Source: a virus. Taken from it: a stretch of 40,244 nt of DNA. The notes under the pieces are model-generated. The model was given only the letters and a program-made list of their open reading frames with translations, was not told where the DNA came from and ran no database searches. Shown piece by piece: positions 2,886 to 38,764 of the stretch; the first letter of the stretch is position 1; every line of letters starts with the position of its first letter. Position numbers and translations under genes: made by a program. Location of the stretch: IMG/VR virus record IMGVR_UViG_3300033145_001682, positions 1 to 40,244 of that record. One strand, given 5' to 3'.

Positions 2886-2898
2886 AGGGTGCAGTTCA

Positions 2899-4901: not shown

Positions 4902-4914
4902 AGGGAGACTTTTG

Positions 4915-4933: not shown

Positions 4934-5049
4934 TTTTGGGCGGCAATTGGGCGGCAAAAACACTTCCCTATGTAAAAGATAGAGCATCAAAATAAAAAAC
5001 CAAAGGATCCCGGCTTAATGCGCTTAGAGGTTTAGATTTTGGTTCTTTG

Positions 5050-5499
5050 CTAGAAAAGCAAGTCAACTGCTGTTTCACAGTCCTCCATACTTACACCCAG
5101 CAAATGAAGGAAAAGAGCTAACATTTGATGGATTCTGTCCTCTGAAAGCTTCCCTTTTGGTCCATCAAGATCTACTTTTAGAAAAGGTTGTGCCAAACCT
5201 AATCTAAGTAAACAGTCCTTTTCAACCTCATCAGTTGCAGCAAAAACTTCAAGATCGCATTCTCTTTTTTTTGTAATGTCGTGAGATAAGGGCGCTGCTA
5301 GAACGCAAGGATGACATGGCGAGGAATTAATTGAATGGTTAGTAATTATTACAACCGGGCGCCCAGTGTGAGTATTTCTCCCAGTAATCTTTGTATCTGG
5401 TATTTTAACATCTGGATCCTTAGCAATGAAGATTTGCCCTTGCTCAAATTGCCTTGGATCAAGACCACTTTTGCGAATGGCTTCACTCAAATCCTGCAC
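5050..5499 (-). CDS. MazF/PemK-like toxin of a type II toxin-antitoxin pair
   Basis: 149 residues, GTG start, overlapping the antitoxin gene by 13 bp. The centre resembles the PemK/MazF fold: GRPVVIITNHSINSSPCHPCVLAAPLS, then CDLEVFAATD and KDCLLRLGLAQPFLK. The usual N-terminal beta-strand seems to lie after a 20-residue extension (QFEQGQIFIAK). Members of this fold are usually sequence-specific RNases, which I infer here. Paired with a Panacea-type antitoxin, it probably acts as a prophage maintenance or anti-phage module. Confidence 0.65.
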   Translation of the reverse strand: MQDLSEAIRKSGLDPRQFEQGQIFIAKDPDVKIPDTKITGRNTHTGRPVVIITNHSINSSPCHPCVLAAPLSHDITKKRECDLEVFAATDEVEKDCLLRLGLAQPFLKVDLDGPKGKLSEDRIHQMLALFLHLLGVSMEDCETAVDLLF

Positions 5500-6095
5500 T
5501 TGCTGGCTCTCTCCCTAAAACCTCTAAGCGATTCAGCCTCCTCAAAAATTGTACGGGCGTATTCTTCATCTGTGCCCCTTCGCTCAAAATTAATTGTTTT
5601 AAAAGCCTCTCGCAATTTCTTTATCGGTATCTTCTTGGCCCCCTTCTTACCTAAGGACATATCAATAACCTCCCCTATCAATTTAAAACCAACTTTTTTT
5701 TCTCGATTTAGTATATGTTGCATGGGAGGCGTGGCATACGAGATAGCTTTCAATTCAGCCAAATTTAGCCTTTGAGTTCTTAAAACCAACTCTTTTGCTA
5801 TCTTTTCTGCTTCTGGCTTTAGGCATACTTGGACTTTATTCTTTTGATGGTGATAATAAGTCACACCATCACATAGGTTTGGTTCTGCAGTAATTGAGAT
5901 CAAACCACTCTCGCTTAAATTATTTAATTCTTTGGTTATTTCTACGGAGTAAGGTCCATAATTATCCCGCACAAAAGTAACACCAGTGTAAGAGCAATTA
6001 TAGAGCACATAATATTGGTAGTCAAAAAGATAAACCAACTTAACTAATTCCGTCCGTGTCAAGGGACGTGGATATTCCTGGATAAAAAAACACAA
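5487..6095 (-). CDS. Panacea/SocA-like (DUF4065) antitoxin
   Basis: The minimum frame begins at a TTG (6093-6095) and encodes 202 residues. The N-terminal 150 residues match the Panacea/SocA domain: TRTELVKLVYLFDYQYY, then DNYGPYSVEITKELNNL, then LNLAELKAISYATPP. The C-terminal 60 residues are basic and helical, as expected for a toxin-neutralising extension. No ribosome binding site precedes the TTG. The frame stays open upstream, and AAAGGGGTGAT lies at about 6120-6130, followed by ATA and ATT (6114-6119) but no ATG or GTG. Initiation at ATT, or a damaged 5' end, is possible. The gene is co-directional with, and overlaps, the toxin. Confidence 0.7.
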   Translation of the reverse strand: MCFFIQEYPRPLTRTELVKLVYLFDYQYYVLYNCSYTGVTFVRDNYGPYSVEITKELNNLSESGLISITAEPNLCDGVTYYHHQKNKVQVCLKPEAEKIAKELVLRTQRLNLAELKAISYATPPMQHILNREKKVGFKLIGEVIDMSLGKKGAKKIPIKKLREAFKTINFERRGTDEEYARTIFEEAESLRGFRERASKCRI

Positions 6096-6210
6096 TAAGT
6101 TGCTTAAAGCACTAATTATATCACCCCTTTCATTGATTTTTTGTCTACCTTCTACATTTTTTATAAAAATCCTTTTTTCCTGAAACTCTTAATGTTCTCA
6201 TACGGAAAAT

Positions 6211-6235
6211 AAAAAAAGCCCCCTAACCCGGGGGC
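6211..6235 (-). terminator. Rho-independent terminator ending the late operon
   Basis: Read leftward: GCCCCC, loop GGGTTA, GGGGGC, then seven T. The stem contains the last codons and the TAG stop (6223-6225) of the holin gene. It ends the long leftward programme before the toxin-antitoxin pair. Confidence 0.85.
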
Positions 6236-6609
6236 ATTGCTTCCCTCTTTCCACTTTCTACCCGCTTCGCCCACTCCTCGCCGAACTCATCTTTAAATGC
6301 TCTGAGGGCTGCTTCGATTAAGCCCTTGATCTCCTCGGGTGTCACCCTTAGGCCCAGTTCCCCAGCCCTGGCCGCGAGCCACTCGGCGGCTTTCTGATAT
6401 TTCTGTTCGCCATGCAGGTCTTTATAAACCTGTTCGACGAACCTGACCGCCAGGGCAGCCAATTCCTTCTTCGTTGCCAACTCACTTTCGATCTGCTGCA
6501 TTTTCTCCACGCCCAACCGCTTCTGCAACCAGGCTATCACGTAGGTTGCGGCGAGCATGGCCAACAGAACCAAAACATTGTTTACCAGGTTATACAGCAC
6601 TTCGTGCAC
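6223..6609 (-). CDS. Phage holin, LLH (phage_holin_6_1) family
   Basis: 128 residues, GTG start after AAGGAGAGTTGAGAC. One N-terminal transmembrane helix (residues 5-28, LYNLVNNVLVLLAMLAATYVIAW) is followed by a long charged helical cytoplasmic part (KELAALAVRFVEQVY, LGLRVTPEEIKGLIEAAL). This is the pattern of the LLH holin family. It follows the amidase gene by 26 bp, and its stop lies in the operon terminator. It probably opens the membrane for the amidase. Confidence 0.8.
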   Translation of the reverse strand: MHEVLYNLVNNVLVLLAMLAATYVIAWLQKRLGVEKMQQIESELATKKELAALAVRFVEQVYKDLHGEQKYQKAAEWLAARAGELGLRVTPEEIKGLIEAALRAFKDEFGEEWAKRVESGKREAMPPG

Positions 6610-6635
6610 GTCTCAACTCTCCTTTCGTTAAGGAC

Positions 6636-7433
6636 TCATTTTCTTCCTTCCTTCAATTCCTTCACTTCTTGTTCCAGTTCTTTTATCTTTTTCACCAAAT
6701 CTCTCCGGTTATTCAGGACGACAGCCAGCACGAAAGCCTTGTCCGGAGCCTGCTCCGGATCGTGCAGTTTGGTAGTTATTCCCTCTCTTAACGCATCTTC
6801 GGCAACCTGCTTTTTCCAGTCGGGAACAACCGGAATAGGTCGGTCGGTCACGCTTACCCCTCCTCCTTTTAGCTGAACGCCTAGGACTTCTGCAATTCCT
6901 TCTGCAATCGCTTTCGCTGCCTTAATCTGAAAATTGACGTTCCTAAGCAACTGTTCTTCCTTTGGATTGCTGATAAAAGCGATTTCCACCAGTGCGGCAG
7001 GCATTTCTGTTTCTCTCAAAACGTGAAAATTCGCTGCTTTCACGCCCCGGTCAGTTAGTCCCAGGGTCTGGATAAGATTCCGCTGGATAGCCCTTGCGAG
7101 TTTTTCTCCCTGTCCGCCGAACTGATAGCAGTAAGTTTCAGTCCCATGCGCCTGTGGGTTTTCAACGCTGTTGCAGTGAATGGAAACAAAAAAGTCTACA
7201 TCTGCTTGATTGGCGATCCTGCATCTCGCGGCAAGATCTTTTTTCTGGTTGGGTGGCCAAGAAATATCATCTCCAGTCCTCGTGTAGATAACTCTTATCC
7301 CCGCTGCCTGCAGGATAGAACCGACATATCGAGTAACAGTTAGTGCTACATCTTTTTCTTTCAGACCTGTTGGCCCAACAGCCCCTGGATCGTAACCACC
7401 GTGTCCGGCATCCAAACATACTTTAAACTCCAC
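6636..7433 (-). CDS. N-acetylmuramoyl-L-alanine amidase (endolysin, Amidase_3)
   Basis: 265 residues, GTG start. Residues 1-180 are an Amidase_3 zinc amidase. The metal and catalytic set is His11 (DAGHGG), Glu26 (LKEKD), His86 (SIHCNS) and Glu150 (VEIAF). No export signal is seen, so release should depend on the holin. In place of a typical wall-binding repeat, the C-terminal 80 residues contain a short linker and a charged coiled coil (LVKKIKELEQEVKELKE). It cleaves the amide bond between MurNAc and the stem peptide. Confidence 0.93.
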   Translation of the reverse strand: MEFKVCLDAGHGGYDPGAVGPTGLKEKDVALTVTRYVGSILQAAGIRVIYTRTGDDISWPPNQKKDLAARCRIANQADVDFFVSIHCNSVENPQAHGTETYCYQFGGQGEKLARAIQRNLIQTLGLTDRGVKAANFHVLRETEMPAALVEIAFISNPKEEQLLRNVNFQIKAAKAIAEGIAEVLGVQLKGGGVSVTDRPIPVVPDWKKQVAEDALREGITTKLHDPEQAPDKAFVLAVVLNNRRDLVKKIKELEQEVKELKEGRK

Positions 7434-21539: not shown

Positions 21540-22523
21540 TTACAGTGCGATGTTGTAGGCCAATACGATGGCCTCAGGATCGGCTAGTTTCACGTCAGCG
21601 CGACAGGTGACGATGATGGAGGTCGCACCTTCGCGCGGGTCGCGGAACTTCTCCACCTTCACCCGGCGGTGGAAGCCCACAATGATGTTCTGTGGATTGA
21701 CCAGGATTGCAAATTTGCTGTAGTCAACGCTCGCACCGTTGATGGTGTCGGTTCCGCTCATCATCGGGACTTCTTTCACGGGGATGCCGCGGAACGCCAA
21801 CTGAGTAGCTAGGTTAGCTACTGTGGCCTGGTCACCCAGACCGGTGCCGCGTGCAGCCAGCGCAGCCTGGTATCCGTCACGGTGTTTGACAGGCACATAG
21901 AGCCTCAGTGTGGAGTAGTCGCGGCGGTACTTCGCAGGCATTGCTTCAACCATTGCTTTGAATAAGTCATCGTAGGAGTTTATAGCAGAAGCATCAACCT
22001 GCTGGGCTGCCGGTGCGTCCGACTGAGCCTGCTTGATTATTCCGTCCAACAGATCAAGATAAGCATCTTCGCCTGTAGTCCTAGCAGTATCGCCTTTAAT
22101 GAACAGTTCTTCTAGGTCGCGGCCAACGGCTTCTGCAACCATTTCCATGATGGTGTCGGCAAGTTTTTCTTTCTCGATGTTGTCCTCGAATACTTCATCG
22201 GAGATCGGCACTTCACCTTTGACTAAGACAGTGTTTAGAGTGACCAGCCCAGTGCTGGGCTTAACGCGGTCGGCATCATCGAGCCTTGTCCCTTCAGTGC
22301 CGGGTCTTAAGATACGGTTGCCGAAAGCGATTCTCGGAACCTCAAACTTCGGGCTGTCGCTGTCTTCGTAGCGGCACTCTTTGGTGATGGTTGTGTAATC
22401 AATAGCTACACGCAGGAACTCCTTCGCCTGCTGTGGCGAGAGATAACCACCGCCAGCGGGAGCCTGCAGATCGGAAGTCGTGAATGTTGCCTTTTCTAAC
22501 CACTCTTGCGCTGTCTTCGGCAT
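21540..22523 (-). CDS. Major capsid protein (HK97 fold)
   Basis: 327 residues, ATG after GGAGG. Features of the phage_capsid family: a short N-terminal helical delta-like region, GGYLSPQQAKEFL, the E-loop/P-domain region RILRPGTEGTRLDD, then VKGEVPISDEVFEDNIEKE and the terminal GFHRRVKVEKFRDPREG with CRADVKLADPEAI. It follows the scaffold-like gene, in standard order. It builds the icosahedral shell. Confidence 0.9.
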   Translation of the reverse strand: MPKTAQEWLEKATFTTSDLQAPAGGGYLSPQQAKEFLRVAIDYTTITKECRYEDSDSPKFEVPRIAFGNRILRPGTEGTRLDDADRVKPSTGLVTLNTVLVKGEVPISDEVFEDNIEKEKLADTIMEMVAEAVGRDLEELFIKGDTARTTGEDAYLDLLDGIIKQAQSDAPAAQQVDASAINSYDDLFKAMVEAMPAKYRRDYSTLRLYVPVKHRDGYQAALAARGTGLGDQATVANLATQLAFRGIPVKEVPMMSGTDTINGASVDYSKFAILVNPQNIIVGFHRRVKVEKFRDPREGATSIIVTCRADVKLADPEAIVLAYNIAL

Positions 22524-22548: not shown

Positions 22549-23091
22549 TTAATTACCGAAGATTACGTCGGCAAACAGCCCTTCGCCCCACTTGCGCGCA
22601 GTCGACTTCTCCACTCTGGCGGGGTCTTCGGGCTGCTTCGACGCCGGTGCAGACTTGGCTACCTGCTGCTTCTGGAGTGCGTCTTTGATCTCGTTGAGCA
22701 CCTGCATTTGGGCCTCCAGAGCCTTCAGGAGTTGGTCTTCGTCTTCGGCCTTCTTCTTCGGCTTCTTCTTGTCGTCTTCTGGCTCAGGGTAGCCGTAGCC
22801 GTATTCTTCTTCGGGTTTCTTCTTCGCCTTGGCCTTGAACTGCACATCAGCATTCAAAAGCTTAGCCAGCGTGTTGAGGGCTTCGACAGCTTCTTCGCCG
22901 AGTTCAACTTCCCCTTCGCTGGCTTCCTTCTTGACCGCTTCAATCACACTCATTGCAGCCTTCTGTAGTTCTTCCAAGTTCACCATCTCCTCATCCTCCT
23001 CCTCGCTCTTTAGTATCAGCCACTTGCGGCCAGTAGCGGGCCTGTCAACAGCGTCAACCTGCTCGATGTCGGCGTCCTTGATCTCCGGCAA
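22549..23091 (-). CDS. Scaffold-like capsid assembly protein
   Basis: The best start is TTG at 23089-23091, nine bases after AGGAGG, giving 180 residues. The N-terminus (IKDADIEQVDAVDRPATGRK) resembles sequences next to XkdF-type proteases. The rest is very acidic or basic and helical: EELQKAAMSVIEAVKKEASE, a KKKPEEEYGYGYPEPEDDKKK linker and LKALEAQMQVLNEIKDALQK. This composition fits a scaffold removed by the prohead protease encoded just upstream. It could instead be an accessory assembly factor. Confidence 0.65.
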   Translation of the reverse strand: MPEIKDADIEQVDAVDRPATGRKWLILKSEEEDEEMVNLEELQKAAMSVIEAVKKEASEGEVELGEEAVEALNTLAKLLNADVQFKAKAKKKPEEEYGYGYPEPEDDKKKPKKKAEDEDQLLKALEAQMQVLNEIKDALQKQQVAKSAPASKQPEDPARVEKSTARKWGEGLFADVIFGN

Positions 23092-23113
23092 ACACGTCCA
23101 CCTCCTTTCCAAG

Positions 23114-26100
23114 TTACTTGACTTTCCGGCCCCAGCCCTGGATGCTGAAGCCGGTAAACTCACCCTTCTTGATGCGTTCCCAGGCTTCAGGCGACCACAC
23201 CACACCCAGGAGCCAGTCGCCGGGCTTTACCTTCTCCCCGTTTACTTCCCATACTGGGCCCCGGTAGATGTAGGACTCAACGACCTCACCTGCGCCTTCC
23301 GTTCCGTCTTTGTGCATCAGTCCGACTCTGCGGTGCTTGAGCAGGTAGTTCCAAGCAGTTTTCTCAAGCTCTTCCGGTGTCATGTAGTCGTCATGGGCGT
23401 CCTTCTCGTTGGCTGGATAAGCTACAGCAAGAGTATAACGGCGTTCCTCTTCGGCCTTAAGGATCTTGGCCAGCTTCGTAACGTCAACTAAGTTGTGTCC
23501 CTTTGCCAGATTGTCAGGGTCTTTCGGCCACACTAGGTAGCGCTGGCCTTTATCGCGTATTTCCTGCACGACTTCATCAAAATCGTGTGTTTTGGCGTAA
23601 GGTCTTTGGTCTTCTGGTCTGGTAAATATCCAGATGCGCTTCTTGCCATTTGCTGGAACATATTGCCACAGGAAACGACCTTTGAGTTTCTGGCCTTCAA
23701 GCCATATCTCCACGGCGTGCTGGCGCGCGAAGCCCAAGCGCCAGGTACCGTGATCTATGGCGAAAAACTTGCTATATTTGCGCGATGTGGAACCGACTCC
23801 GCCAGGTTCTACTACCAACGGCTTATCTAAACCGACCTTTAGCCAGACAGAAGGTCCAAACAGTTTAGGCGCAGACTGTATCTTTTCATCAGGATCGTGC
23901 ATCATGCGGAAGATGCGTAATTCCTCACGGTTCTCCTCCGTTGTGCCTGCGAACAGGCTTATACCCCACCAACCGTCAAAACGGTCGGTGCCCAGGCGCA
24001 GATCGAAGTGTAAGCTGTGGTCTGTTTCAAGCAGTTCTTCCATACTGAGTTTGGTCTCTTCTTCAGTCAATCCGCGCCAGTGGGCATGTAACACAAAAGG
24101 CAACGCCTTTCCGCTTAATGGCATTGCCTCGTGCCAGTTTTCCTCCCAATTGCGGTGAGCAGCTTCACCCCTTGTCTCGTCACCTTCGCCTTCTTCGCCT
24201 CTTTGCTTTTCCACAACTTCTTGCAGCACGCCACCGCGCCTGGCGATGTCAACGACTTGGTTGGCAAAGTATGGCCTGCTTCGGCTTTTGTCCACGTCTA
24301 TAGGCTTAGCACCGAGCCAGTCAAGATGTAAGCCGTCGTCAGCCTGGCGAACGATTATTTCCTCCACTTCAAATGTCACGATGTCTCCAGTCTCAGCTTT
24401 GAACGGCGCATTGAAACTCCAGCCGAGATCTACCACCTTTTGGTCTTCAAACTCCACGATATTAGCGAAGTCGGCATCACCCAGAAGCAAGCCACCCCGA
24501 AAGCCGTAGGTGCCGTTTTTGTTCCGTTTCACATCCAGCACCCATGCTTTGATTTCGACAGCATGTTTTATCTTTGCCATACCGTCCGTGCCTGGCTTAA
24601 GTTCAAACGGCGCAGCAAGGTCCTTGAGAACAATACCTTCGCTTAAATACATACCACCGAGTTTCTCCCAGGCCCGCTTCAGGTCGGCCTTGCTTTCTAT
24701 CTTCATCTGGTCAGTAATGGCGAAGTGCTTGTCGCCCTTGAGATACTTGTCGTAGAACTCTTCCAGCAGCTTACGCCTTTCGGCGAACGGTTTTTCGTGC
24801 ACGTCGCCACCCTTCTCATCCCAATAAAGCAAATCAAAGACCGTAACCTTTGGGTAAGCATCCTCTGGAAGCTCTGGCTTATCGGCAGTCAGAGTCATCA
24901 GCTTGATGCGTGGCCAGGGCTTGCCATCCTGCTCTACTCCGACGTTGGCATCTAGGATAAAATCAGCGTCAATCTTTTGCAGTGCTTCAGTTATTTCCGG
25001 CAACTGCTTGTTGCGTTCCTTCTGGCTATCTTCAAAGAAGATGCTCACCCTATCCCCGGCTTTCTGTAGGCAGGATCTGAATCCATTAAGCTTCTCCTCA
25101 GCCACTACACCATTCGGCAGGTGTTTCTTTACCCAGGGCCAGATTTCATCCGGCGAAAACGCTTCTGTCTGGGCGTGGTAAAGCTTCATCGCCGGTTTCT
25201 GCATCGGGAAGCGGGCGATAGGTTTCAATTCTCTCTTCTCGATTTGTTCGGGTTTCCGTAGGACACCGCGCACATAGACCAGATCCCCATGCTCAATCTC
25301 TTCCAGCTCCTCTACCTCGAACCTGGGCCTGTTCTCTAACAGGTTGTCCTGCGTCCAGAAGTAGAAGCTAGATTTATTCCAGAAACTGCGATGTCCAGGA
25401 TGGGCAAATGCCCCTTCACCCCTAGTGCTGGGGACCTCAAACACGAATTTCCCGCCAGGTTTGAGCACACGCCAGATCTCGCTCATAATGGCTTCTTTAT
25501 CGCTTAAGTGCTCCAACACATGCCATGCCCTAATTTCGTCGGCATAATTATCTGGCAACGGTATGCCTTGCTCTAAGTCTGCTACAATGTCAACTTCAGG
25601 GTAATTTTGCTTATCAATGCCTAGATACCCTTCAGGCTTATTGTTTCCGCACCCTAAATCGACCCTAATAGCGTCGGTTTTAGATACAAATTCTAGTCCT
25701 TTGCGTGGTCTCAGCACCAAGTCATACAAAGGCACATAGGCTTGGTCTTTCGCAAGGTGCGGACCCTGAGAATTGAAGAGCAGGTGCAGTTTTTTGCCCT
25801 GCTTGTCCGGGTCAATTAATTTCCTGATGAGCAGGTAAAGGCTCTCTTTCTGGCCTTTAGAGAGCCTCTCTTCGTCTTCGCGCACCAAAACGTCTATGTC
25901 GTTCGGCTCCTCGCTCTTCACTGCCGAACCGACGAGACTGACATAAGCAGGCACAAGTACTTGGTCGTCGACTATCTTGAGACGCTCTTCCAGCCAATCA
26001 GAAGCACCCTTCATCAGCTTTTCTGATTGCTCGTCTAGTTCATCGTGGGGATTGTGGTTCATGCCGCGCCTCTTCATCTCCTCGACAACCCACACGTGTT

Positions 26101-26257
26101 GTTGAAAGCCGCGATATTCAGTTGCTTCACCACGTGCCTTTGCCGCGCCGTAAAGCTGGTGAAGGCGACGGTGCAGGTTGAGCAGTTCTTCATCAGATAA
26201 TTGGCTAATTTCTTTACTCGTCATATTGAAAATATCGTGAACTTTCTCGATACTCAT
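23114..26257 (-). CDS. Giant fusion: nucleotidyltransferase - SAM methyltransferase - DNA ligase - LigD-like phosphoesterase - XkdF prohead protease
   Basis: 1047 residues, ATG at 26255-26257 with GGAGGAC upstream, one uninterrupted frame. Residues 1-95 are helical. About 100-185 is a minimal nucleotidyltransferase (G110-S111, D120-x-D122). About 197-335 is a class I methyltransferase (VDLGCGNN 199-206, LGID 212-215, WHVLEHLS 245-252, RVLKPGG 263-269). About 345-655 is an ATP-dependent ligase: motif I EEKLNGFR with candidate Lys389, VFDLLYWD 473-480, SEGIVLKD 539-546, AKIKHAVEIKAW 561-572, then an OB-like part. About 715-905 resembles the LigD 3'-phosphoesterase (DHSLHFDLRLG 746-756; LEGQKLKGRF 853-862). 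Residues 938-1047 are XkdF/S78_2-like (His982, Ser1038 in FSIQG). It occupies the prohead-protease slot. Activities are inferred. Confidence 0.85.
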   Translation of the reverse strand: MSIEKVHDIFNMTSKEISQLSDEELLNLHRRLHQLYGAAKARGEATEYRGFQQHVWVVEEMKRRGMNHNPHDELDEQSEKLMKGASDWLEERLKIVDDQVLVPAYVSLVGSAVKSEEPNDIDVLVREDEERLSKGQKESLYLLIRKLIDPDKQGKKLHLLFNSQGPHLAKDQAYVPLYDLVLRPRKGLEFVSKTDAIRVDLGCGNNKPEGYLGIDKQNYPEVDIVADLEQGIPLPDNYADEIRAWHVLEHLSDKEAIMSEIWRVLKPGGKFVFEVPSTRGEGAFAHPGHRSFWNKSSFYFWTQDNLLENRPRFEVEELEEIEHGDLVYVRGVLRKPEQIEKRELKPIARFPMQKPAMKLYHAQTEAFSPDEIWPWVKKHLPNGVVAEEKLNGFRSCLQKAGDRVSIFFEDSQKERNKQLPEITEALQKIDADFILDANVGVEQDGKPWPRIKLMTLTADKPELPEDAYPKVTVFDLLYWDEKGGDVHEKPFAERRKLLEEFYDKYLKGDKHFAITDQMKIESKADLKRAWEKLGGMYLSEGIVLKDLAAPFELKPGTDGMAKIKHAVEIKAWVLDVKRNKNGTYGFRGGLLLGDADFANIVEFEDQKVVDLGWSFNAPFKAETGDIVTFEVEEIIVRQADDGLHLDWLGAKPIDVDKSRSRPYFANQVVDIARRGGVLQEVVEKQRGEEGEGDETRGEAAHRNWEENWHEAMPLSGKALPFVLHAHWRGLTEEETKLSMEELLETDHSLHFDLRLGTDRFDGWWGISLFAGTTEENREELRIFRMMHDPDEKIQSAPKLFGPSVWLKVGLDKPLVVEPGGVGSTSRKYSKFFAIDHGTWRLGFARQHAVEIWLEGQKLKGRFLWQYVPANGKKRIWIFTRPEDQRPYAKTHDFDEVVQEIRDKGQRYLVWPKDPDNLAKGHNLVDVTKLAKILKAEEERRYTLAVAYPANEKDAHDDYMTPEELEKTAWNYLLKHRRVGLMHKDGTEGAGEVVESYIYRGPVWEVNGEKVKPGDWLLGVVWSPEAWERIKKGEFTGFSIQGWGRKVK

Positions 26258-26840: not shown

Positions 26841-27611
26841 TCATAGCGCTGGCAGTTCAGGAGCCTTCAAATATGAAACCGTGCACCTGCAACGTGGGTG
26901 CGACGGGGCGTGCATGTTACCATCCTGAAACGGCGTCCTGATTGGTATTGCCCCCTGTGCTGAGTTAGCACGGCAGATAGGGCAAACCCTTGCGTCCCCA
27001 ACGTTGATCCAGACTTTATACTGCAGGCCACCAGCAACAGACGTGGCGTAGGTCATCGTCTCAGTAGCTCTGGCCCACTCAGTCCAGGCAATAACCTCGG
27101 CGCGCTCTTTGGAAACCTCGGCCCATTCGCGGCGTATCCTCTTGGCAAAATCCCACTGGTCTTCGCCTGCCAGCATAGCTTCAGCAAGAAGTTTCCTAAG
27201 CCTCTCTTTGAGTGTGTCTGGTATGCCAACTATAAAGGGCATAGTATTGCGCACCGCTTCCTCAAACACAGAACGCGCAAAAACTTCATCGAAGCCGCGC
27301 ACCATCGCCTGTGCCAGTTCCAGTTTCGCCGCCTCTTCCCAAAGCTGGGTCACCATCTCCACCGTCACATCGAATGCAGAAATAAGGTCTTCCGGCAATT
27401 CCTCTTCACGGGCATCCTTGCGCAAGCGGAAGAACTTTTCCCAGGGATAATCAATGACCTTCTCCGCTATCGCCTGCTGCAACCTTCTTTGCCAGGCGCG
27501 CCTCAGTTTCGCCTGGTCTTTTTGCTTTTTCTTCGCCAGGACTTGCTCGACAGCCCACAGCAGCCTGTTTGACTTCCAGAACTCACTCTCTTCCGGTATC
27601 GGGTGATACAT
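26841..27611 (-). CDS. Minor head protein (Mu gpF / SPP1 gp7-like)
   Basis: 256 residues, overlapping the portal gene by 29 bp. The C-terminal 130 residues contain the Mu-F signature: KERAEVIAWTEWARATETMT, WINVGDARVCPICRANSAQG and HPRCRCTVSYL, with the conserved Cys and His residues. The N-terminal half is helical and basic. Proteins of this family bind the portal and are needed for infective capsids. Confidence 0.88.
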   Translation of the reverse strand: MYHPIPEESEFWKSNRLLWAVEQVLAKKKQKDQAKLRRAWQRRLQQAIAEKVIDYPWEKFFRLRKDAREEELPEDLISAFDVTVEMVTQLWEEAAKLELAQAMVRGFDEVFARSVFEEAVRNTMPFIVGIPDTLKERLRKLLAEAMLAGEDQWDFAKRIRREWAEVSKERAEVIAWTEWARATETMTYATSVAGGLQYKVWINVGDARVCPICRANSAQGAIPIRTPFQDGNMHAPSHPRCRCTVSYLKAPELPAL

Positions 27612-28974
27612 CCTCCACCGCCACCGCCTTCAGTGCTTCTCTCAGTTCATGCAACAAGTCAACAGCCTTCCTCAATTGCGGTTCGGTTATCTCCTGACCG
27701 CGATAATAGAACGCGTCCAGTGCGGGGTCTTCTGCAGGTTCCAGACCAAGCTCCGCCCTGGCCTCGTTCGGGGTCATCAGACCAACTTCAACGGCTTTGG
27801 TCGCCACCTCAAGTGAGAGTTCGGTCTCTTCCCAGTCAAGGTCTTCAAGTTGCCAACGCCATCCTTGGAGATTGAAACCCTGTGGCCCAAATAGCGTCTT
27901 GTTTAGCCGATCTTCCAAAACTGTCTGCAACGGCTCGACAACACCGTGCCGGTAAGCCTGCAACATTTCTCTTGCCGCAGAGCCGCCTAAACTCCCCAGC
28001 AACGCCCAGCCAACACGATAAGGCGGAACCGAATGCGCCATGAGTATAGTCTTGATCAGGTCCTCCCGACGCTTCAGGAAATGGCCTTCGCGTATGTCTG
28101 GGTTGATCTTCTCTACCGCTACTTCAACAGTCTTGGGCAACCCAAGCACCAGCGTCGAGTGGTATTTTGTCACCGCATTGTGCAGTTCCGTCGTTATCTC
28201 CTGCACATACCGCTGGGCCATCTCCGGAGTATCCGTCCTCAGCACCATAAGCCTGCCGACTGTTCCACTGCTCTCAAAGAACGCCAGGCTATAGTCGCGT
28301 ATGGCATTGTATTCCGCAATCGACGCCAGACAAGAGATCCAGTGCGGCACCCCATATCGCGAACGCGACGAATAGCGTGTGAAGAAAATCACCTCGCTGG
28401 CGTCTTGGTCGCCATCCTCCCACTTACCGTTAAGCGGATTCAAACGTGCTTCTACTCCAAAACGCTTAAAGTAGCGGAACTGTCCGTTCTTGTGCTGGAC
28501 AAACACGTCCGGGTCCTTCGTAAGCCGTATTGTGTAGGCTGGCATCGGGTAGATTGCGCCGATGTTGCCGTCTTCGTCCCTTACCACTTCCCAGGCAGAC
28601 CAGCCGATTGCCAACTGCTCCCATGCTGCTTGATAGAGCAGTTCCCCAAACGTATACTGCGGGGAAAGGTCATCGAGCATCTTCTCCACAGCGTCCTTAA
28701 CGTCCGAGTCCGCGTCTTCGTCTTCTGCCACAAAGAACCACCCACGTCCGACAGCATCAGTTGCTACCGCGTGCAGGGCAGCAGAGTGTATTTCATTCGT
28801 CTCAGCCAGAACCATCAGCTTCTGCGGGTTGTATGGCGGCTCGATCGCAAAGCCAAGCGTATACAACTGCTCAAAAGCGTCAGGTAACTGCTTTGATGCT
28901 GGCTGCGAGGCTACAGCCTTGGCGATGATCTCCTTGTTATCTTTTCGCTTCAGTATCCGGTCTAAGAGTGCCAT
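27583..28974 (-). CDS. Portal protein (PBSX XkdE-like)
   Basis: 463 residues. Portal features: FAIEPPYNPQKLMVLAETNE, LLYQAAWEQLAIGWSAWEVV, IFFTRYSSRSRYGVPHWISC, and a helical crown region LEVATKAVEVGLMTPNEARAEL. The combination with an XtmB-like terminase and an XkdF domain resembles the PBSX head module. It overlaps the large terminase gene by 13 bp. Twelve subunits form the DNA entry ring. Confidence 0.9.
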   Translation of the reverse strand: MALLDRILKRKDNKEIIAKAVASQPASKQLPDAFEQLYTLGFAIEPPYNPQKLMVLAETNEIHSAALHAVATDAVGRGWFFVAEDEDADSDVKDAVEKMLDDLSPQYTFGELLYQAAWEQLAIGWSAWEVVRDEDGNIGAIYPMPAYTIRLTKDPDVFVQHKNGQFRYFKRFGVEARLNPLNGKWEDGDQDASEVIFFTRYSSRSRYGVPHWISCLASIAEYNAIRDYSLAFFESSGTVGRLMVLRTDTPEMAQRYVQEITTELHNAVTKYHSTLVLGLPKTVEVAVEKINPDIREGHFLKRREDLIKTILMAHSVPPYRVGWALLGSLGGSAAREMLQAYRHGVVEPLQTVLEDRLNKTLFGPQGFNLQGWRWQLEDLDWEETELSLEVATKAVEVGLMTPNEARAELGLEPAEDPALDAFYYRGQEITEPQLRKAVDLLHELREALKAVAVEDVSPDTGRE

Positions 28975-30182
28975 CTCAAAACCCCCGTCACAGGCGTCCA
29001 GTCGGCTCTGCTGACTGCGCCCATAATCGCGTAGCGGAGTGCGTCCGCGATGTGGTCGTCACGCTTAAGCGGCTTGTCTTCGCCACGTTCCTGCGCCTTT
29101 TTATCCCACACGTAGGAATAAAACTGGCTGATTGTCTTTTCGCATTTTCGGTAAACAAAAAGCCGGTCGCTGCCCAGCAACCGGCTCACGGTAGCGATTC
29201 CTTCGAGGACCTCACTGTTAGCTTCCTGCACTTGAGAAACCCCTTCCGCCCTAAATTGCTCGATTAACACCTGGGCCGAAGGGTCAACATAGACAGTAGC
29301 GGGAATTATATCCCCAATCCAGTCAAGGAAATCTTTTACGTATTTGTCAACCGTTTTAGCCCCCGCTTGGCGTCCTTCGTGGAAGTATTCCTTAATCACG
29401 TAATAAGTGCCCTGCTTTACTCCGATAAGCAGGAACACCGTGGGGTTCTGCATCCCGAAGTCAACACCGACAACATAGCGCTCAAACTTGTCAGGGAGTG
29501 CATCAACAACGTGCCTGTTTTCGTCAAACATATCGTAGACAACGCCTTCAGCCGCTACCCACTCGCCCAGCACAAAACGCTTGTAAAACAAACCGCTGTA
29601 GGTCTTGCGCAGGAATTCTACATAATCGGTTGGTAGAAATGGGCTATCTTCTAACTGGAAACGCTCGATGTAATAACCTTTTTCGCCAGCACCCTGCACG
29701 TAATCTTGGTAGAGCCAGTGGTAAGGCGAATCTGGGTTCGTGGTGCCGAATATCTTTGCGTTTTCGCCACTGTTTCTGGCAAGTATCTGCTCAAAAACGC
29801 TTTGCGGATAAGTCGTTATCTCATCCAGCAGCGCCCCATAAAGCGTCAAGCCCCGAATACGAGTCTCGCTTTTCTCATCGTTTGCTCCCAAGATATATAC
29901 CTTATGGCCCAAGAAATTCATTTCGTCACGGGTCATCAAATATTCGTATGAGTTTTCCCCGAGATACTGCCTGAAAATCGGTATAACGTTGCGCCTCACT
30001 GTGTCCCTTGTTTTGCCGAAGATGGCGAACTGCTTCGGTTCGGTAAAGCGCATCATGTGTAACAAGAAGGCAATTGTTGCCGCAACAGTTTTGCCGCTCC
30101 GCACAGAGCCTACCGCGATGTTAAATTTCCTCGTCGCCTTCCTGATAAATGTCTTCTGCTTCTGGCTGAAGGCTATCGACAA
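28962..30182 (-). CDS. terL: Terminase large subunit (XtmB-like)
   Basis: 406 residues. The ATPase domain has Walker A GSVRSGKT (25-32) and Walker B LYGALLDE with Asp120-Glu121. The RNase H-like nuclease domain has acidic residues Asp241 (VGVDFG), Asp300 (VYVDPS) and Asp376/Asp380 (DDHIAD). It powers DNA packaging and cuts the concatemer. It starts inside the last 62 bp of the small terminase gene. The residue pattern is intact, so it should be active. Confidence 0.93.
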   Translation of the reverse strand: MSIAFSQKQKTFIRKATRKFNIAVGSVRSGKTVAATIAFLLHMMRFTEPKQFAIFGKTRDTVRRNVIPIFRQYLGENSYEYLMTRDEMNFLGHKVYILGANDEKSETRIRGLTLYGALLDEITTYPQSVFEQILARNSGENAKIFGTTNPDSPYHWLYQDYVQGAGEKGYYIERFQLEDSPFLPTDYVEFLRKTYSGLFYKRFVLGEWVAAEGVVYDMFDENRHVVDALPDKFERYVVGVDFGMQNPTVFLLIGVKQGTYYVIKEYFHEGRQAGAKTVDKYVKDFLDWIGDIIPATVYVDPSAQVLIEQFRAEGVSQVQEANSEVLEGIATVSRLLGSDRLFVYRKCEKTISQFYSYVWDKKAQERGEDKPLKRDDHIADALRYAIMGAVSRADWTPVTGVLRWHS

Positions 30183-31217: not shown

Positions 31218-31297
31218 TGGCGAGGGAGGTAGGACTTGAACCCACACACCAGCCCGGGATCTGGAGTCCCGCGCTCTACCAGTTGAGCTACTCCCTC
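31218..31297 (-). tRNA. tRNA-Trp (anticodon CCA), CCA end encoded
   Basis: Acceptor GAGGGAG/CTCCCTC, D-stem GCTC/GAGC, anticodon stem CGGGA/TCCCG with loop CTCCAGA (anticodon CCA), T-stem GTGGG/CCTAC with loop TTCAAGT, discriminator G and genomic CCA. The variable region is 9 bases, longer than the usual 4-5. All stems pair, so it is probably functional. It lies between the late regulator and the packaging genes. Confidence 0.9.
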
Positions 31298-31329
31298 GCA
31301 AAATTTTTTAAGCAGGCCCCATTCTCCCT

Positions 31330-31470
31330 ACAAACCACCCACGCGGCGCGTGGGGCTTCGGATCGGACAGAACCCTGCAATCGGCGACCATCAGGACTCA
31401 TCCCTTACGGCCACTACGTGCCGCTGCCGCCGATTAAACCGTCCTCTGCAGGACGGCTTCATCCGCTTAC
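31330..31470 (-). mobile_element. Orphan IS605/TnpB right-end or omegaRNA-like remnant
   Basis: Read leftward this stretch starts with GTAAGCGGATGAAGCCGTCC and a GTCC-TGCAGA-GGAC hairpin. A GC-rich body follows, ending in GAAGCCCCACGC-GCC-GCGTGGGTGG. That last hairpin matches the typical right end of IS605-type tnpB elements, which is also the 3' end of the omegaRNA. No TnpB coding sequence remains nearby. Recognition is from memory of the terminal motif, so it is tentative. Confidence 0.4.
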
Positions 31471-34341: not shown

Positions 34342-34638
34342 TCACACCGCCTCCTGGATTACGAACCCTTTTCCATCTTCCCAGACCCAGACCTCATAGC
34401 TGATACTGGCAAACCTGGGCAGTTGTTGAAGCCTCTCCTTTGCCGCCTCGTACTCCGCCTTCCAAATGCCGCCCTCCTGCACTCTCTTCACCTGTATGAA
34501 CCGGACCCCGGTGGGCCCCACGGCAATCACATCCGCGAAGCCGTGAGACCCCGCAGTCCGCAGGACTTCATAACCAGCCTTCTCCAGTATCTTTGCTACG
34601 TCATACTCTTTACTCCGACCGCGCTTGTAGTTGCTCAC
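34342..34638 (-). CDS. Hjc-like Holliday-junction resolvase / PD-(D/E)XK nuclease
   Basis: 98 residues from a GTG at 34636-34638, overlapping the upstream TGA. It has the Hjc pattern: YKRGRSKEYDVAKILEKAGY with Glu11, VLRTAGSHGFADVIAV with Asp36, then FIQVKRV with Lys51. The usual catalytic Glu before x-Lys is Gln49, seen in some nucleases of this fold. A short ARERLQQL-like helix and an EVWVWED strand complete the domain. It probably resolves recombination or replication junctions before packaging. Confidence 0.8.
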   Translation of the reverse strand: MSNYKRGRSKEYDVAKILEKAGYEVLRTAGSHGFADVIAVGPTGVRFIQVKRVQEGGIWKAEYEAAKERLQQLPRFASISYEVWVWEDGKGFVIQEAV

Positions 34639-34802
34639 CCAACAACCACCTTCTTCCCGTACCTTCTGCCGGGCCACACAACCAACAGCCGACCGGTTCG
34701 ATAGTCCAGGTACACCAGCCGACCGCACTCCGTGCAGAGGTGGGCCGTCTTTCCGCGCCACCTTACCTTCACTGTCTGCCGGAAGCACCTTGCACACAGC
34801 AC
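34635..34802 (-). CDS. Small zinc-ribbon protein (55 aa)
   Basis: GTG at 34800-34802 with GGAGGCGGGAAGACA upstream, TGA at 34635 overlapping the nuclease start (GTGA). It has two Cys pairs (CARC 3-6, CTEC 23-26) and beta segments VKVRWRGKTAHL and RLVYLDYRTGRLLVVW. It shares DNA with the 35-residue frame at 34769-34876. Probably a nucleic-acid-binding partner of the nuclease. Confidence 0.65.
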   Translation of the reverse strand: MLCARCFRQTVKVRWRGKTAHLCTECGRLVYLDYRTGRLLVVWPGRRYGKKVVVG

Positions 34803-34876: not shown

Positions 34877-35076
34877 GCTGTCACCCCCGGTGGGATACCT
34901 ACCGCCACCACTATCCCGGGGAACTCATCTCGGTTGTGGGGAAACCACACCACAACCCGCTCCCGCAGTTTCCGGATTTCCTCCCGCTCCCTGACTCGGC
35001 GTCTCCTCTCCTCCCGGGCCGTGCGGCCCGGGCGTTTATGCTGTGCCGAAATACTCTCGCCTCCCGATTTATCCAC
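34873..35076 (-). CDS. Small basic protein (67 aa)
   Basis: The GTG at 35074-35076 overlaps the DnaC-like gene stop. A very basic helical N-terminus (AREERRRRVREREEIRKLRE) is followed by a beta hairpin (VVVWFPHNRDEFPGIVVAVG). It is probably DNA- or RNA-binding. The start is uncertain, and codons around REREEIRK could also initiate. Confidence 0.5.
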   Translation of the reverse strand: MDKSGGESISAQHKRPGRTAREERRRRVREREEIRKLRERVVVWFPHNRDEFPGIVVAVGIPPGVTA

Positions 35077-35854
35077 TCTTTCTCAAATCTGGTCCTTTGA
35101 GACCGACGAAGATGCAAAACTCAGCAATCCTGGACGCCAGCGCAACGCCAACCTCTTCCTCGTAGCGCTTCTCCAGCTCAGTCAGTGTAAAGTTTGTTGT
35201 CACTACAAACGGCCGGAGTTCACTGTATCTAGTGTCTATGACCTCAAACAGGACCTGCTGAACCCAAGGTGAAACCTTTTCTTTCCCCAGGTCATCTACC
35301 ACCAGCAGAGGAACCGTGCAGAGGTCGTTTATCACCTGTTGCTCATCTACACAGTCTTCGCCATAGGTCTGCTTAATGCGCCCCAGCAACTTCACAACGC
35401 TGCCAAAAATACACGGTATCCCTGCGCGCATCAGCACATGCATGAGAGAAGCAGCCAATCCTGTCTTGCCCGTTCCCACAGAACCGGTGATAAACAAGCC
35501 CTTGTTGTGCCCCCGCTTCGCAATGAACTCTTCTGCGTATTTCCGCACAACCTGCAACGCTTTATCATCAACCAACCCTTGCGCTGTTTCAAAGCTCATC
35601 TTGTGATAGCGGGCAGGCAGGCCAGAATTTTTCAAAAGGGTTTGATATCTCTGCTCCTGCTCCAACTTGCGCTGTCGTTCTTCTTGGATTTTCTGGCGTC
35701 TAGCTTCTTCCTCACGAGCCTTGACAGCCTCAGCACACATACAGGGCTGGGGCCGAATCCATGTAGTGAAACCTAACTCGGGAATCTCCCGCTTCTCCCA
35801 GCGATATTCCGTCCCGCAGTAAGGGCACACCACCGGTTCAGGCTCAGGTTTCAT
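35069..35854 (-). CDS. DnaC/IstB-like helicase loader
   Basis: 261 residues from the ATG at 35852-35854, overlapping the initiator gene by 11 bp; an upstream in-frame start is less likely. The N-terminus has a zinc module (Cys10/Cys13 in CPYC, Cys38/Cys40 in CMC), then a Glu/Arg-rich coiled coil. The AAA+ domain has Walker A GSVGTGKT (124-131), Walker B LLVVDDLG (183-190), sensor-like VVTTN (217-221) and ASRIAEFC at the end. It would load the host replicative helicase at the phage origin. It pairs with the DnaD-like initiator encoded just before it. Confidence 0.88.
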   Translation of the reverse strand: MKPEPEPVVCPYCGTEYRWEKREIPELGFTTWIRPQPCMCAEAVKAREEEARRQKIQEERQRKLEQEQRYQTLLKNSGLPARYHKMSFETAQGLVDDKALQVVRKYAEEFIAKRGHNKGLFITGSVGTGKTGLAASLMHVLMRAGIPCIFGSVVKLLGRIKQTYGEDCVDEQQVINDLCTVPLLVVDDLGKEKVSPWVQQVLFEVIDTRYSELRPFVVTTNFTLTELEKRYEEEVGVALASRIAEFCIFVGLKGPDLRKSG

Positions 35855-36785
35855 AGAGCCGGCGCTCCCATTCTTCCATGCGGTCTTCAATACTTCGCCC
35901 GCTTGGCGGGTTTCTGCCACCACCGTTTACCTCCTTCGCTGGCATGTTAAGCCACTTGTCCACTTGTGAATCATTCCGGAAGATGAACTCAGGGGTGGCG
36001 TAGACCTGGCCTTTGTCGTTTTCGCCGCAGTGGAAGGGGCTGGCCCGAATGTTGCGGATGGCAGTCTTCAGTTCCTCGACGGTGTAAGTCTTCAAGCGGG
36101 CTTGGATCTTTTTGCGGCGTTCTTTTGTTAACTTCAAAGGCCTGGCCCATATATCACCGAAAAGCTCGTTGTAATAGTCCATGACCTCTTGAGCAGCCTC
36201 TCGAGCCGGAGGTTGGCACGCGCCGTCCAACGGCTCGTTGGACAAGGTGTCGTTAGACACCTTATCTTTTTTATTTTTCTTAGGGGAAAGTGAAGGAGAA
36301 GGAGAAGGAGAAGGAGAAGGAGAAGGAAAGGCGGGGTTTTCTTGTGATTCTGCAGAAAAATTTTGTTCTTCTGTGGTTTCAAATTTTTTCTGTGTTTTCG
36401 CAGAAAAATTTTGTTCCTCTGCAGTAATGTCTTCCTGGCCCTTTTGTGAACCACTCTTAGTTCTTTTTGTTTGAGGTATGTATGTTTGGTAACGGTAGAA
36501 GCTCTCAGGAAATGTTATCCTATTGTTTTCTCTGTCCCAGTTGATAAGCCCTAGTTTGTGCATACCTTCGAGTGCATGAATGATGTCCTCTACTGACTTA
36601 TCTCTGCGTCCAGGAACGACTTGGTAAAGCAATTGTTCCGGATCTCCCGTCAGTGAAGCACTGTCATCAGCATGCGGGATCATCCAGGTATAAAGAAGCG
36701 CCGCAAAATCTCCATATTCCAGCGCCAGCTTGTTTACCCTAGTGTCAAGCGAGATATCTGTGCTGATGAAACGCTTCCTGCCCAC
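35844..36785 (-). CDS. DnaD-like replication initiator (phage replisome organizer)
   Basis: 313 residues, GTG after GAGGAGAAGG. The N-terminal 120 residues form a winged-helix replisome-organizer domain (RFISTDISLDTRVNKLALEY, LLYTWMIPHADD, LGLINWDRENNRITF). A low-complexity linker follows: two EEQNFSA repeats and a run of Ser-Pro repeats coded by a GGAGAA hexamer array. The C-terminal helices (RERRKKIQARLKTYT-like, FIFRNDSQVDKWLN) resemble DnaD/DnaB loaders. It probably binds the origin, which may lie within its own gene. Confidence 0.8.
   Translation of the reverse strand: MGRKRFISTDISLDTRVNKLALEYGDFAALLYTWMIPHADDSASLTGDPEQLLYQVVPGRRDKSVEDIIHALEGMHKLGLINWDRENNRITFPESFYRYQTYIPQTKRTKSGSQKGQEDITAEEQNFSAKTQKKFETTEEQNFSAESQENPAFPSPSPSPSPSPSLSPKKNKKDKVSNDTLSNEPLDGACQPPAREAAQEVMDYYNELFGDIWARPLKLTKERRKKIQARLKTYTVEELKTAIRNIRASPFHCGENDKGQVYATPEFIFRNDSQVDKWLNMPAKEVNGGGRNPPSGRSIEDRMEEWERRLYET
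36293..36330. repeat. GGAGAA hexanucleotide microsatellite in the initiator gene
   Basis: About six tandem units of a GAAGGA-type hexamer. They encode the Ser-Pro run of the initiator linker. The array length is expected to vary by slippage in whole codons. Confidence 0.85.
36352..36421. other. Candidate replication origin with iteron-like direct repeats
   Basis: Two 22-bp direct repeats beginning GCAGAAAAATTTTGTTC (36352-36373 and 36400-36421, one mismatch, 48 bp apart) surround an AT-rich stretch. They lie inside the replication initiator gene, the same plan as the lambda O gene origin. They could instead be simple coding duplications (EEQNFSA). Confidence 0.45.
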
Positions 36786-37804: not shown

Positions 37805-38764
37805 TCACGAAGAGACCCCGGCAGCCGCGCTTTTCGGTGGCATAAGCTGAACCCGGCGCTCGATGTATGCTGCCAATTTATCTAAATCGTGTTGCGTTTG
37901 CACGAAGTTGGTCAACGATTCTACTTTTTCGACTTTGTAGAGTTCAGCGGCAAAACTGTGCACCTGCGCGTGGTCTAACCCAAGTTTCCGCATTTTACCC
38001 CAGAAGCGATTCCAGTTCGGCTTCTCAGTGCTTTCAGTGTTCGATGTGCCTTTATCAACTACTGTTGTGGCCGCGGGCGCGCCGTCGCTCAGCCATGCCT
38101 TAATCATATCGGCAACGTCCTTCCCAGGCTTCTGCACAATGAGACCATCTAAGGCACGGCAGCGCGTCTTGGTCACGACAAAGTTATGGTCTAAATCCAT
38201 ATCAGCCACGATGTCGAACTCGTATTCCATACCGTCTCGCTGAATGGGCTGCATACCGACTTTTTTGATGACGGTCTTGCCTTTATCGTCAACAGTCTGG
38301 ATGTATTCCATTTTGCTTCGCAGAGTGGCAATCAGATGACCTGGATAGGATAACATGGCTTCGATTAGCTTGTTGTGTAAGGGGGTAACATCGCGCCATG
38401 CGGCAAACCGGTTGCCTCCGTATTTGGCTGCGTTCTTGTCGGCAAGCTCAAGTGCTCCTTCTGTGCCCGCCCAGGCGTGGCTTAATGAGTCAATGATAAG
38501 TACATCGTAACCGGCCTGCGCTGCAGCCTTGATGCCATCGATGTAAAGCTGTGGATGGAACTTGGTGAGTTCGAGCACATCAAAATCGAACTCATCAGCG
38601 TATTTACTTGCGCTGCCGTGCTCGGTGTCGATGACAGCGATTCTGTTTCCTAACTCTTTCGCAAGCAACAGGGCTGTGTATGTCTTGCCACAACCGCTCG
38701 GCCCGATGATGCCGATACGGGCTTTAGCCTGCGACTTGACGGCTTTCCTGAACTGCAGAGCCAT
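37805..38764 (-). CDS. Sak4-like RecA-fold ATPase (recombination)
   Basis: 319 residues, ATG after GGAGGTGAAGGAGA. The RecA/AAA_24 fold is clear: Walker A GPSGCGKT (21-28), Walker B VLIIDSLSHAW (Asp92), then HLIATLRSKMEYIQ. The C-terminal 90 residues are less conserved and contain a helical WNRFWGKMRKLGLDHAQVHS segment. Sak4 proteins support phage homologous recombination, usually with an SSB-like partner. No SSB gene is visible in this window. Confidence 0.8.
   Translation of the reverse strand: MALQFRKAVKSQAKARIGIIGPSGCGKTYTALLLAKELGNRIAVIDTEHGSASKYADEFDFDVLELTKFHPQLYIDGIKAAAQAGYDVLIIDSLSHAWAGTEGALELADKNAAKYGGNRFAAWRDVTPLHNKLIEAMLSYPGHLIATLRSKMEYIQTVDDKGKTVIKKVGMQPIQRDGMEYEFDIVADMDLDHNFVVTKTRCRALDGLIVQKPGKDVADMIKAWLSDGAPAATTVVDKGTSNTESTEKPNWNRFWGKMRKLGLDHAQVHSFAAELYKVEKVESLTNFVQTQHDLDKLAAYIERRVQLMPPKSAAAGVSS

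Follow-up and report, generated by a model that had tools for sequence, protein, structure and literature searches.

A prohead-protease fusion protein bearing exchangeable DNA-repair-type enzyme domains in the head-gene region of tailed viruses

The 40,244-nucleotide stretch of viral DNA analysed here (the window) encodes a single protein in which an XkdF (Peptidase_S78_2) prohead protease follows a nucleotidyltransferase (NTase)-like domain, a methyltransferase, an ATP-dependent ligase and a LigD-type 3′-phosphoesterase (PE). On balance, we favour reading it as a polyvalent prohead-protease protein that brings DNA-repair cargo into the prohead, where the cargo is freed by XkdF to act on phage DNA or on host defence. 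The frame starts with ATG and is uninterrupted (Table 1). About 60 related ORFs were found in virus contigs, in two MAGs and in the archaeal virus ANMV-1. The fusion recurs with end-to-end homology across dozens of independent contigs, L002, L004 and L005 being full-length relatives of the window protein, and is therefore far beyond chance.

Table 1. Fusion ORF, its domains and the neighbouring head genes in the window (residue numbers refer to the fusion protein)
Feature	Position	Strand	Evidence or content
Whole fusion ORF, 1047 aa	23114..26257	(-)	N-domain / NTase-like / MTase / ligase+OB / LigD-type PE / XkdF protease
N-terminal helical domain, family hallmark, aa 12-74	26036..26224	(-)	own HMM
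NTase-like domain, aa 97-185, with G110-S111, D120xD122, D179	25703..25969	(-)	motif conservation
SAM-dependent methyltransferase, aa 197-336	25250..25669	(-)	Pfam Methyltransf_11; own HMM
ATP-dependent ligase nucleotidyltransferase core, aa 363-564	24566..25171	(-)	Pfam PF01068 E=1e-18; motif table
Putative OB domain behind ligase core, aa 567-679	24221..24559	(-)	own HMM and alignment
LigD-type 3′-phosphoesterase, aa 694-911	23525..24178	(-)	AF2 + Foldseek, PDB profile search, motif table
XkdF (Peptidase_S78_2) prohead protease, aa 930-1045	23123..23470	(-)	Pfam E=3e-24
Scaffold-like ORF, downstream of fusion	22549..23205	(-)	phrog_3017 match, positions 4-34
Major capsid protein	21540..22523	(-)	Phage_capsid E=6e-13, phrog_1623 E=2e-84
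MuF-like minor head protein	26841..27611	(-)	Phage_Mu_F E=4.5e-13
Portal protein	27583..28974	(-)	Phage_portal E=3e-25

The genes at the locus are arranged in the order terminase, portal, MuF, a 187-aa gene, the fusion ORF, a scaffold-like gene and capsid, which bears out the placement of the fusion in the normal protease slot between minor head and capsid genes. At the loci examined, including that of the XkdF-less relative L046, portal and MuF genes lie upstream of the fusion and the major head protein downstream. The window protein shares its protease domain, the conserved His and Ser and the head-gene position with the XkdF proteins (PF14550, S78_2) of PBSX-like phages. In ordinary XkdF proteins, such as that of Lactococcus phage 28201 (L016), however, a VDRxAN-type motif, N-terminal of XkdF, and a scaffold region belong to the same gene, whereas the window has enzymes fused upstream and a separate downstream ORF that holds a VDRPA motif and that, from its position and composition, is probably the scaffold.

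The Peptidase_S78_2 profile scores 85.7 bits on the window fusion, compared to a curated cut-off of 24, in agreement with the C-terminal protease proposed by an earlier reading made from the sequence alone. In an alignment of 24 sequences, Asp953, His982 and Ser1038 are invariant and Glu994 is nearly so; the catalytic His982 and Ser1038 are thus kept in the window. Nine records with XkdF, among them the window, were tested; each has a single copy of the domain, and a head-protease search covering S78 and S78_2 returned no S78 protease in any of them. The XkdF frame is a long fusion or a PE-bearing frame in eight of these records, and a separate frame of 410 aa in the ninth (G318). By these searches, the domain looks like the only head-maturation protease of the phage, and the idea that enzyme cargo is linked to the protease is well supported. 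Of 61 family ORFs, partial ones included, 44 have XkdF as their final domain, 42 of them with no more than 28 residues beyond it; wherever the domain is found, it is C-terminal. A search with PF14550 across 301 genomes of the phylum of the MAG that encodes L050 gave four matches and no long fusion of the present family.

The modules between the N-terminal domain and XkdF vary, and comprise uracil-DNA glycosylase (UDG, in many relatives), Dam (in some), methyltransferase, the anti-CBASS protein Acb1 and a metallo-β-lactamase-like region; one relative that lacks XkdF carries ADP-ribosyltransferases. Such cargo also occurs without XkdF in L029, L045-L047, L050 and ANMV-1, so that the tie to the protease is not obligatory. 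The UDG, Dam, Acb1 and ADP-ribosyltransferase modules point to DNA repair or protection and to counter-defence more generally. Comparison of the window with L002 gives identities of 80% for the NTase-like domain, 39% for the ligase, 84% for the PE and 85% for XkdF, while comparison with L044 gives 79% for the methyltransferase, 77% for the ligase, 54% for the PE and 32% for XkdF. AU tests reject a grouping of the window with L002 in the ligase tree (p = 2e-10) and with L044 in the PE tree (p = 6e-33), and the methyltransferase label requires three changes on the ligase tree versus 11, as many as at random, on the PE tree. The trees show that methyltransferase and ligase have been swapped in frame as a single cassette. 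The cargo domains are under purifying selection, with dN/dS values of about 0.01-0.16 in every domain tested (close pairs with unsaturated dS).

Because XkdF is apparently the only head-maturation protease, the fusion would be a late product that assembles into the prohead together with the scaffold, as expected from the role of such a protease. XkdF would then cut the polypeptide and release the N-terminal enzymes, which would work on the phage’s own DNA, either in the head while the DNA is being packaged or once it has been ejected into a new host cell. The PE would trim damaged 3′ ends and the ligase would seal nicks, while in relatives UDG would remove uracil and Dam would methylate the DNA; Acb1 and, in the XkdF-less relative, the ADP-ribosyltransferases might act as host-defence antagonists from the same cassette series. 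Prohead proteases of well-studied phages mostly exit the head or are degraded in it, and retention of the cargo is therefore not assured. More tentatively, and as a possibility rather than an expectation, tailed viruses of bacteria, and probably of archaea, may package a protease-borne repair-kit polyprotein, free it by proteolysis and inject it, so that the genome is repaired and protected as it enters the cell. Such a kit would consist of a uracil glycosylase, 3′-end trimming, possible gap filling by the NTase, a ligase and protective methylases. An essential, prohead-built protease, apparently the only one of the phage, joined to a large exchangeable set of enzymes is a strong hint of virion-borne repair and counter-defence enzymes. 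Some large eukaryotic viruses carry DNA-repair enzymes; if correct, the packaged-repair reading would provide their phage counterpart and suggest how phage DNA outlasts damage outside the cell.

It is less probable, but deserves to be taken seriously, that XkdF frees the polyprotein inside the infected cell, with the enzymes acting on replicating or packaging DNA rather than being virion-borne, and the fusion simply setting late-expression timing. Ligase, UDG and Dam do serve replicating phages, the fusion sits in a late head operon, and the enzymes persist in some relatives that have no XkdF. However, replication functions would be oddly late in a head operon, the Acb1 and ADP-ribosyltransferase cargo is better suited to entry, and the enzymes are fused to a protein that ordinarily becomes part of the prohead.

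While a Pfam scan of the window protein gave no significant match over the PE segment, an AF2 model of this domain (pLDDT 95.6) returned LigD PEs for each of its top seven Foldseek matches (E = 1.5e-6 to 4.8e-5). These are all of the PDB matches with E ≤ 1e-3, and the next, unrelated match has E = 0.023. A PE family profile searched against the PDB likewise matched LigD PEs alone (best E = 4e-4). The predicted β-barrel is thus confirmed as that of the LigD 3′-phosphoesterase superfamily, as the sequence-only reading had suggested from signatures that are indeed present, and a chance motif match is ruled out. One signature, given as H-x-x-L-H-x-D-x-R-L, in fact reads HSLHFDLRL and is one residue shorter. 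Conserved residues His726, His750, Asp752 and Arg754 correspond, by alignment rather than by superposed coordinates, to His42, His48, Asp50 and Arg52 of PaeLigD, matching its Mn triad (His42, His48, Asp50) plus Arg52; residue roles are taken from the study of that enzyme, in which the phosphate-site residues His84 and Tyr88 of P. aeruginosa LigD are essential (PMC8656161). The PE motif table shows no conserved His or Tyr at the aligned place, and the invariant His847 is a possible substitute for the missing phosphate-site residue.

This PE and the ATP-ligase core share one polypeptide, as in bacterial LigD. The role originally proposed would have them packaged together as an end-joining set, sealing or capping the ends of the genome either while it is packaged or when it enters a cell. 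We regard this as improbable. Ku was absent from all 12 records searched, which may be fragments, while the positive control was detected, and Pfam scans of the window fusion and its relatives found no LigD primase/polymerase (PrimPol-type) domain. Moreover, PE and ligase belong to cassettes that can be separated, UDG and Dam would be out of place in such a kit, and the ligase motifs of the window are altered. The family also differs from LigD in its domain order, its extra modules, its protease fusion and, in the window, the missing His84/Tyr88 counterparts.

The ligase and methyltransferase assignments both stand above Pfam cut-offs (DNA_ligase_A_M, aa 376-564, E = 1e-18; Methyltransf_11, aa 215-273, E = 8e-11). 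The motifs, K389-L-N-G, LDAN, E540-G-I-V-L-K and K562-I-K564, place the window ligase, as judged from its sequence, in a variant class: motif I is KxNG instead of KxDG and motif III has changed from DGE to DAN, with loss of the Glu, while the Lys389 nucleophile, motif IV EGxV (Glu540-Gly541) and motif V KxK (Lys562/Lys564) are kept. The proposed NTase fared less evenly. Its GS...DxD...D pattern, to be compared with hG[GS]...DxD...D of the pol-β-type NTase superfamily, is present in most of 27 relatives, but NTP_transf_2 matches weakly (best E = 0.008, in L004), and Foldseek with a poor AF2 model (pLDDT 72, pTM 0.48) gave no significant match. The OB domain, which we assign from position and motif, and the N-terminal helical domain are two parts beyond those listed earlier. 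The isolated N-terminal segment gives a marginal match, just above cut-off, to Pyr_excise (PF03013, the T4 endonuclease V family; E = 7.6e-5); PF03013 matches eight of 21 family members, and a PDB profile search with the domain gave zero matches.

The changes in ligase motifs I and III and the lack of identifiable His84/Tyr88 counterparts in the PE count against packaged repair. They also raise the alternative, to which we likewise give little credence, that most of the cargo lacks catalytic activity in the window and in those relatives with a methyltransferase. It would instead serve as an internal protein that binds DNA or has a structural role, and the altered ligase would be a relic that binds nucleic acid or senses nucleotides. 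Every sequence in the motif table that has a methyltransferase shows KxNG and lacks the motif III Glu, and the T4 endonuclease V family match is degenerate. Against this, the ligase retains its nucleophilic Lys together with the Glu of motif IV and the Lys of motif V, the PE retains its metal triad and Arg, the domains tested are under purifying selection, and canonical ligases (KxDG, GE) occupy the same slot in relatives such as L002, L024 and L051.

In the Arthrobacter phages Ottawa, Kovu and Edmundo, the gene in the protease slot encodes a 2H phosphoesterase fused ahead of XkdF, a likeness to the window family that is limited to one small, unrelated enzyme, with no ligase, LigD-type PE, UDG or methyltransferase. 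These proteins are annotated as “RNA ligase” or as capsid maturation protease; the former can be ruled out, as the domain is a 2H phosphoesterase. Such a fusion, and the known occurrence of ligase, NTase and methyltransferase sets in RNA repair, would fit a scheme in which the window enzymes mend tRNAs cut by host anticodon nucleases at entry. We consider this very unlikely, as the ligase is closest to DNA ligases and UDG, Dam and the LigD-type PE act on DNA. As for a misassembly or chance union of separate genes, the frame is broken inside UDG in one relative contig (3300033145_000910; L064/L030), but the end-to-end sharing of the fusion by dozens of independent contigs rules this out for the window to near certainty.

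Polyvalent proteins of phages and conjugative elements were described by Iyer et al. in 2017 (PMC5512222), some of them ending in a peptidase that resembles head proteases (assemblin-like), with packaging inferred; the earlier claim of a new way of using end-joining enzymes was therefore overstated. The packaged-repair reading places the window family among them: shuffled, unrelated enzyme domains share one polypeptide with a peptidase, next to portal-terminase packaging genes. In one class of these proteins the assemblin-like peptidase is always C-terminal, and the domains of polyvalent proteins also include Dam, 2H phosphoesterase and ADP-ribosyltransferase (PMC5512222). The main text of that study, however, does not mention XkdF, nor uracil-DNA glycosylase or DNA ligase as domains, whereas a set for strand-break and base repair forms the core of the present family and its peptidase is the sole XkdF/S78 head protease found. 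A literature search of limited reach found no paper on XkdF fused to ligase or UDG. The packaged-repair reading, if correct, would also supply a modular scheme of cargo loading, in which new enzymes could be read from the slot between the N-terminal domain and XkdF. With its exchanged cassettes, the family already offers a list of candidate effectors of early infection.

The ANMV-1 protein annotated as “ATP-dependent DNA ligase” (AJP62006.1) has the same NTase-ligase-OB-PE order and is encoded directly after the portal gene, but differs in having no XkdF domain and a C-terminal part without an assigned domain. Two “DNA methyltransferase” labels look like name carry-over, one on the 210-aa XkdF protein of Rhizobium phage RHph_TM16 and the other on the Lactococcus phage 28201 protein, which reads as XkdF plus scaffold-like sequence.

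The fusion ORF (23114-26257, minus strand) is an uninterrupted frame of 1047 codons opening with ATG, and the protease, ligase and methyltransferase that the sequence-only reading placed in it all score above the Pfam curated cut-offs. Among ligase profiles, the best matches are to DNA ligases. The frame does sit in the protease slot claimed for it between minor head and capsid genes, in the order MuF, 187-aa gene, fusion, scaffold-like ORF, capsid. The scaffold-like ORF carries a ‘VDRPA’ motif; in ordinary phages (locus L016, for example) this motif lies N-terminal of XkdF, the Peptidase_S78_2 prohead protease, in one protein, whereas in the window the two occupy separate ORFs. The record, a virus contig of 40,244 bases, is probably that of a temperate phage, as it encodes an S24-type repressor and an integrase.

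Features of the window and domain layouts of related ORFs (NTD, N-terminal helical domain; MTase, methyltransferase; LIG, ligase; PE, LigD-type 3'-phosphoesterase)
Feature	Position or locus	Remark
Peptidase_S78_2 (XkdF)	aa 930-1045	Pfam, above curated cut-off
ATP-dependent ligase core	aa 376-564	Pfam, above curated cut-off
Methyltransf_11	window ORF	Pfam, above curated cut-off
Terminase large subunit	28962-30182	same strand as fusion ORF
Portal	27583-28974	same strand as fusion ORF
MuF	26841-27611	same strand as fusion ORF
187-aa gene	between MuF and fusion ORF	same strand
Scaffold-like ORF	22549-23205 (-)	between fusion ORF and capsid gene
Capsid gene	21540-22523	same strand as fusion ORF
S24-type repressor, integrase	2.9-4.7 kb	
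Archaeal Holliday junction resolvase Hjc match	34342-34797 (-)	E=6e-6
IstB/DnaA-like ATPase	35069-35923	near Hjc-like ORF
AAA_24 ATPase	37805-38764	near Hjc-like ORF
NTD-NTase-MTase-LIG-UDG-PE-XkdF		12 ORFs
NTD-NTase-LIG-UDG-PE-XkdF		6 ORFs
NTD-NTase-LIG-PE-XkdF		5 ORFs
NTD-NTase-MTase-LIG-PE-XkdF		5 ORFs; window's own
Extra Dam module	L018, L027, L084	
Extra anti-CBASS Acb1 (PF23474)	L039, ORF 2863-7062	E=2.6e-22
Extra metallo-beta-lactamase-like region	L024	

A Pfam search with aa 694-911, the proposed LigD-like phosphoesterase (PE), returned no match. When a profile built from 32 relatives was run against the PDB, however, every hit was a LigD phosphoesterase (five sequences, best E=4e-4), the AF2 model has a mean pLDDT of 95.6, and all seven Foldseek matches to the PDB with E≤1e-3 were LigD phosphoesterases. 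In P. aeruginosa LigD, H42, H48 and D50 form the Mn site, which is accompanied by R52, and H84 and Y88 are essential (PMC8656161). By alignment rather than superposed coordinates, the first four correspond to conserved H726, H750, D752 and R754, and no conserved counterparts of H84 and Y88 were found in the aligned domains; H847 is invariant among aligned relatives. Given these profile and model matches and the partly kept active-site residues, the LigD-type fold is established, and catalytic activity is plausible but possibly altered.

The proposed NTase kept its GS...DxD...D pattern in most relatives, but its profile and structure matches fell below significance. The N-terminal helical domain matched Pyr_excise (T4 endonuclease V family) in the window (E=7.6e-5) and in 8 of 21 family members; a PDB search gave no support for this kinship, which we treat as a sequence-based lead.

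A full-length query and two profiles, for the PE and for the N-domain, recovered dozens of contigs with relatives, including L050 and L051 (MAGs labelled Dehalococcoides sp. JdFR-54 and Methanothrix sp.), and in the archaeal virus ANMV-1 an NTase-ligase-PE arrangement directly follows the portal. The fusion is a family, not a freak. Its members have a variable middle and conserved ends: XkdF is the final domain in 44 of 61 ORFs scanned with our own HMMs, partial ORFs included, and layouts shrink to NTD-XkdF (L078) and NTD-NTase-PE-XkdF (L083).

Identity between the window and L002 is 80-85% in NTase, PE and XkdF and 39% in the ligase; with L044 it is 77-79% in methyltransferase and ligase, 75% in the OB domain and 32-54% elsewhere. 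L002/L005 and L005/L044 show a reciprocal pattern. The ligase tree pairs the window with L044 (99/96), while the PE tree groups it with L002 and L018-L021; AU tests rejected alternative placements on both, with p-values that are descriptive because pairs were picked after the identities were seen. The methyltransferase label required 3 changes on the ligase tree (0/500 shuffles were as low) and 11, the same as random, on the PE tree. Wherever a member listed in the motif table has a methyltransferase, its ligase is of the KxNG type and the Glu of motif III has become Asp or Asn. Together, these identities, trees and motifs indicate that methyltransferase and variant ligase travel as one in-frame cassette. 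In each domain tested, dN/dS was ~0.01-0.16 for close pairs with unsaturated synonymous change, the L027/L028 pair having too few differences to be informative.

XkdF is single-copy in each of nine XkdF-bearing records, lying within a long fusion or PE-bearing frame in eight and in a separate 410-aa frame in the ninth (G318). The head-protease search covered two families, XkdF (S78_2) and S78, and S78 was found in 0/17 records. It is therefore probable that the fusion must serve as head protease. At the loci with scanned surroundings, the upstream side has portal or MuF genes and the downstream side a major head protein.

Polyvalent proteins of phages are a known kind, and the prediction for them is that they are packaged with the DNA and delivered along with it; one class always has a C-terminal assemblin-like peptidase, predicted to process proteins in virion assembly (Iyer et al. 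2017, PMC5512222). The present family fits this plan, with another protease family (XkdF) at the C-terminus and a DNA-repair-centred cargo: the fusion would probably enter the prohead and be cut, and the cargo would be injected and its enzymes would repair DNA. The end-joining role proposed earlier is the weaker reading, since Ku was found in 0/12 records and the LigD polymerase domain was not matched. We found no earlier description, in the open-access papers searched, of repair cargo that is anchored to XkdF and exchanged in frame as cassettes.

Several loci show further arrangements. Acb1 in L039 is inserted between NTase and methyltransferase, within the protease fusion. At L031, a 1804-aa ORF (476-5887; methyltransferase, ligase and, in two stretches, ADP-ribosyltransferase PF03496, E=1.6e-40) directly precedes a 265-aa PE gene; XkdF and S78 searches of this record gave no match. 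Read by eye, L071 aa 271-674, between the NTase and the contig end, appears GNAT acetyltransferase-like, then metallo-beta-lactamase-like. In L030/L064 (contig 3300033145_000910) the frame breaks within UDG and so forms two ORFs, through either a sequencing error or a real split. Partial ligase matches precede the full core in tandem in L029 and L035, which suggests a duplicated or inserted segment. The 1000-aa gp3 of Arthrobacter phage Mufasa8 (L056, 2003-5005) is called a portal by one record and a MutT/NUDIX hydrolase by a second. It adjoins a small XkdF protease that shares 53% identity with the window's, and may likewise be a head protein to which cargo is fused. At 31218-31376 (minus strand) in the window itself, in the stretch that separates the head genes from the early region, a tRNA-Trp gene adjoins a DUF3800-VIII RNA match (42.5 bits, above the gathering score).
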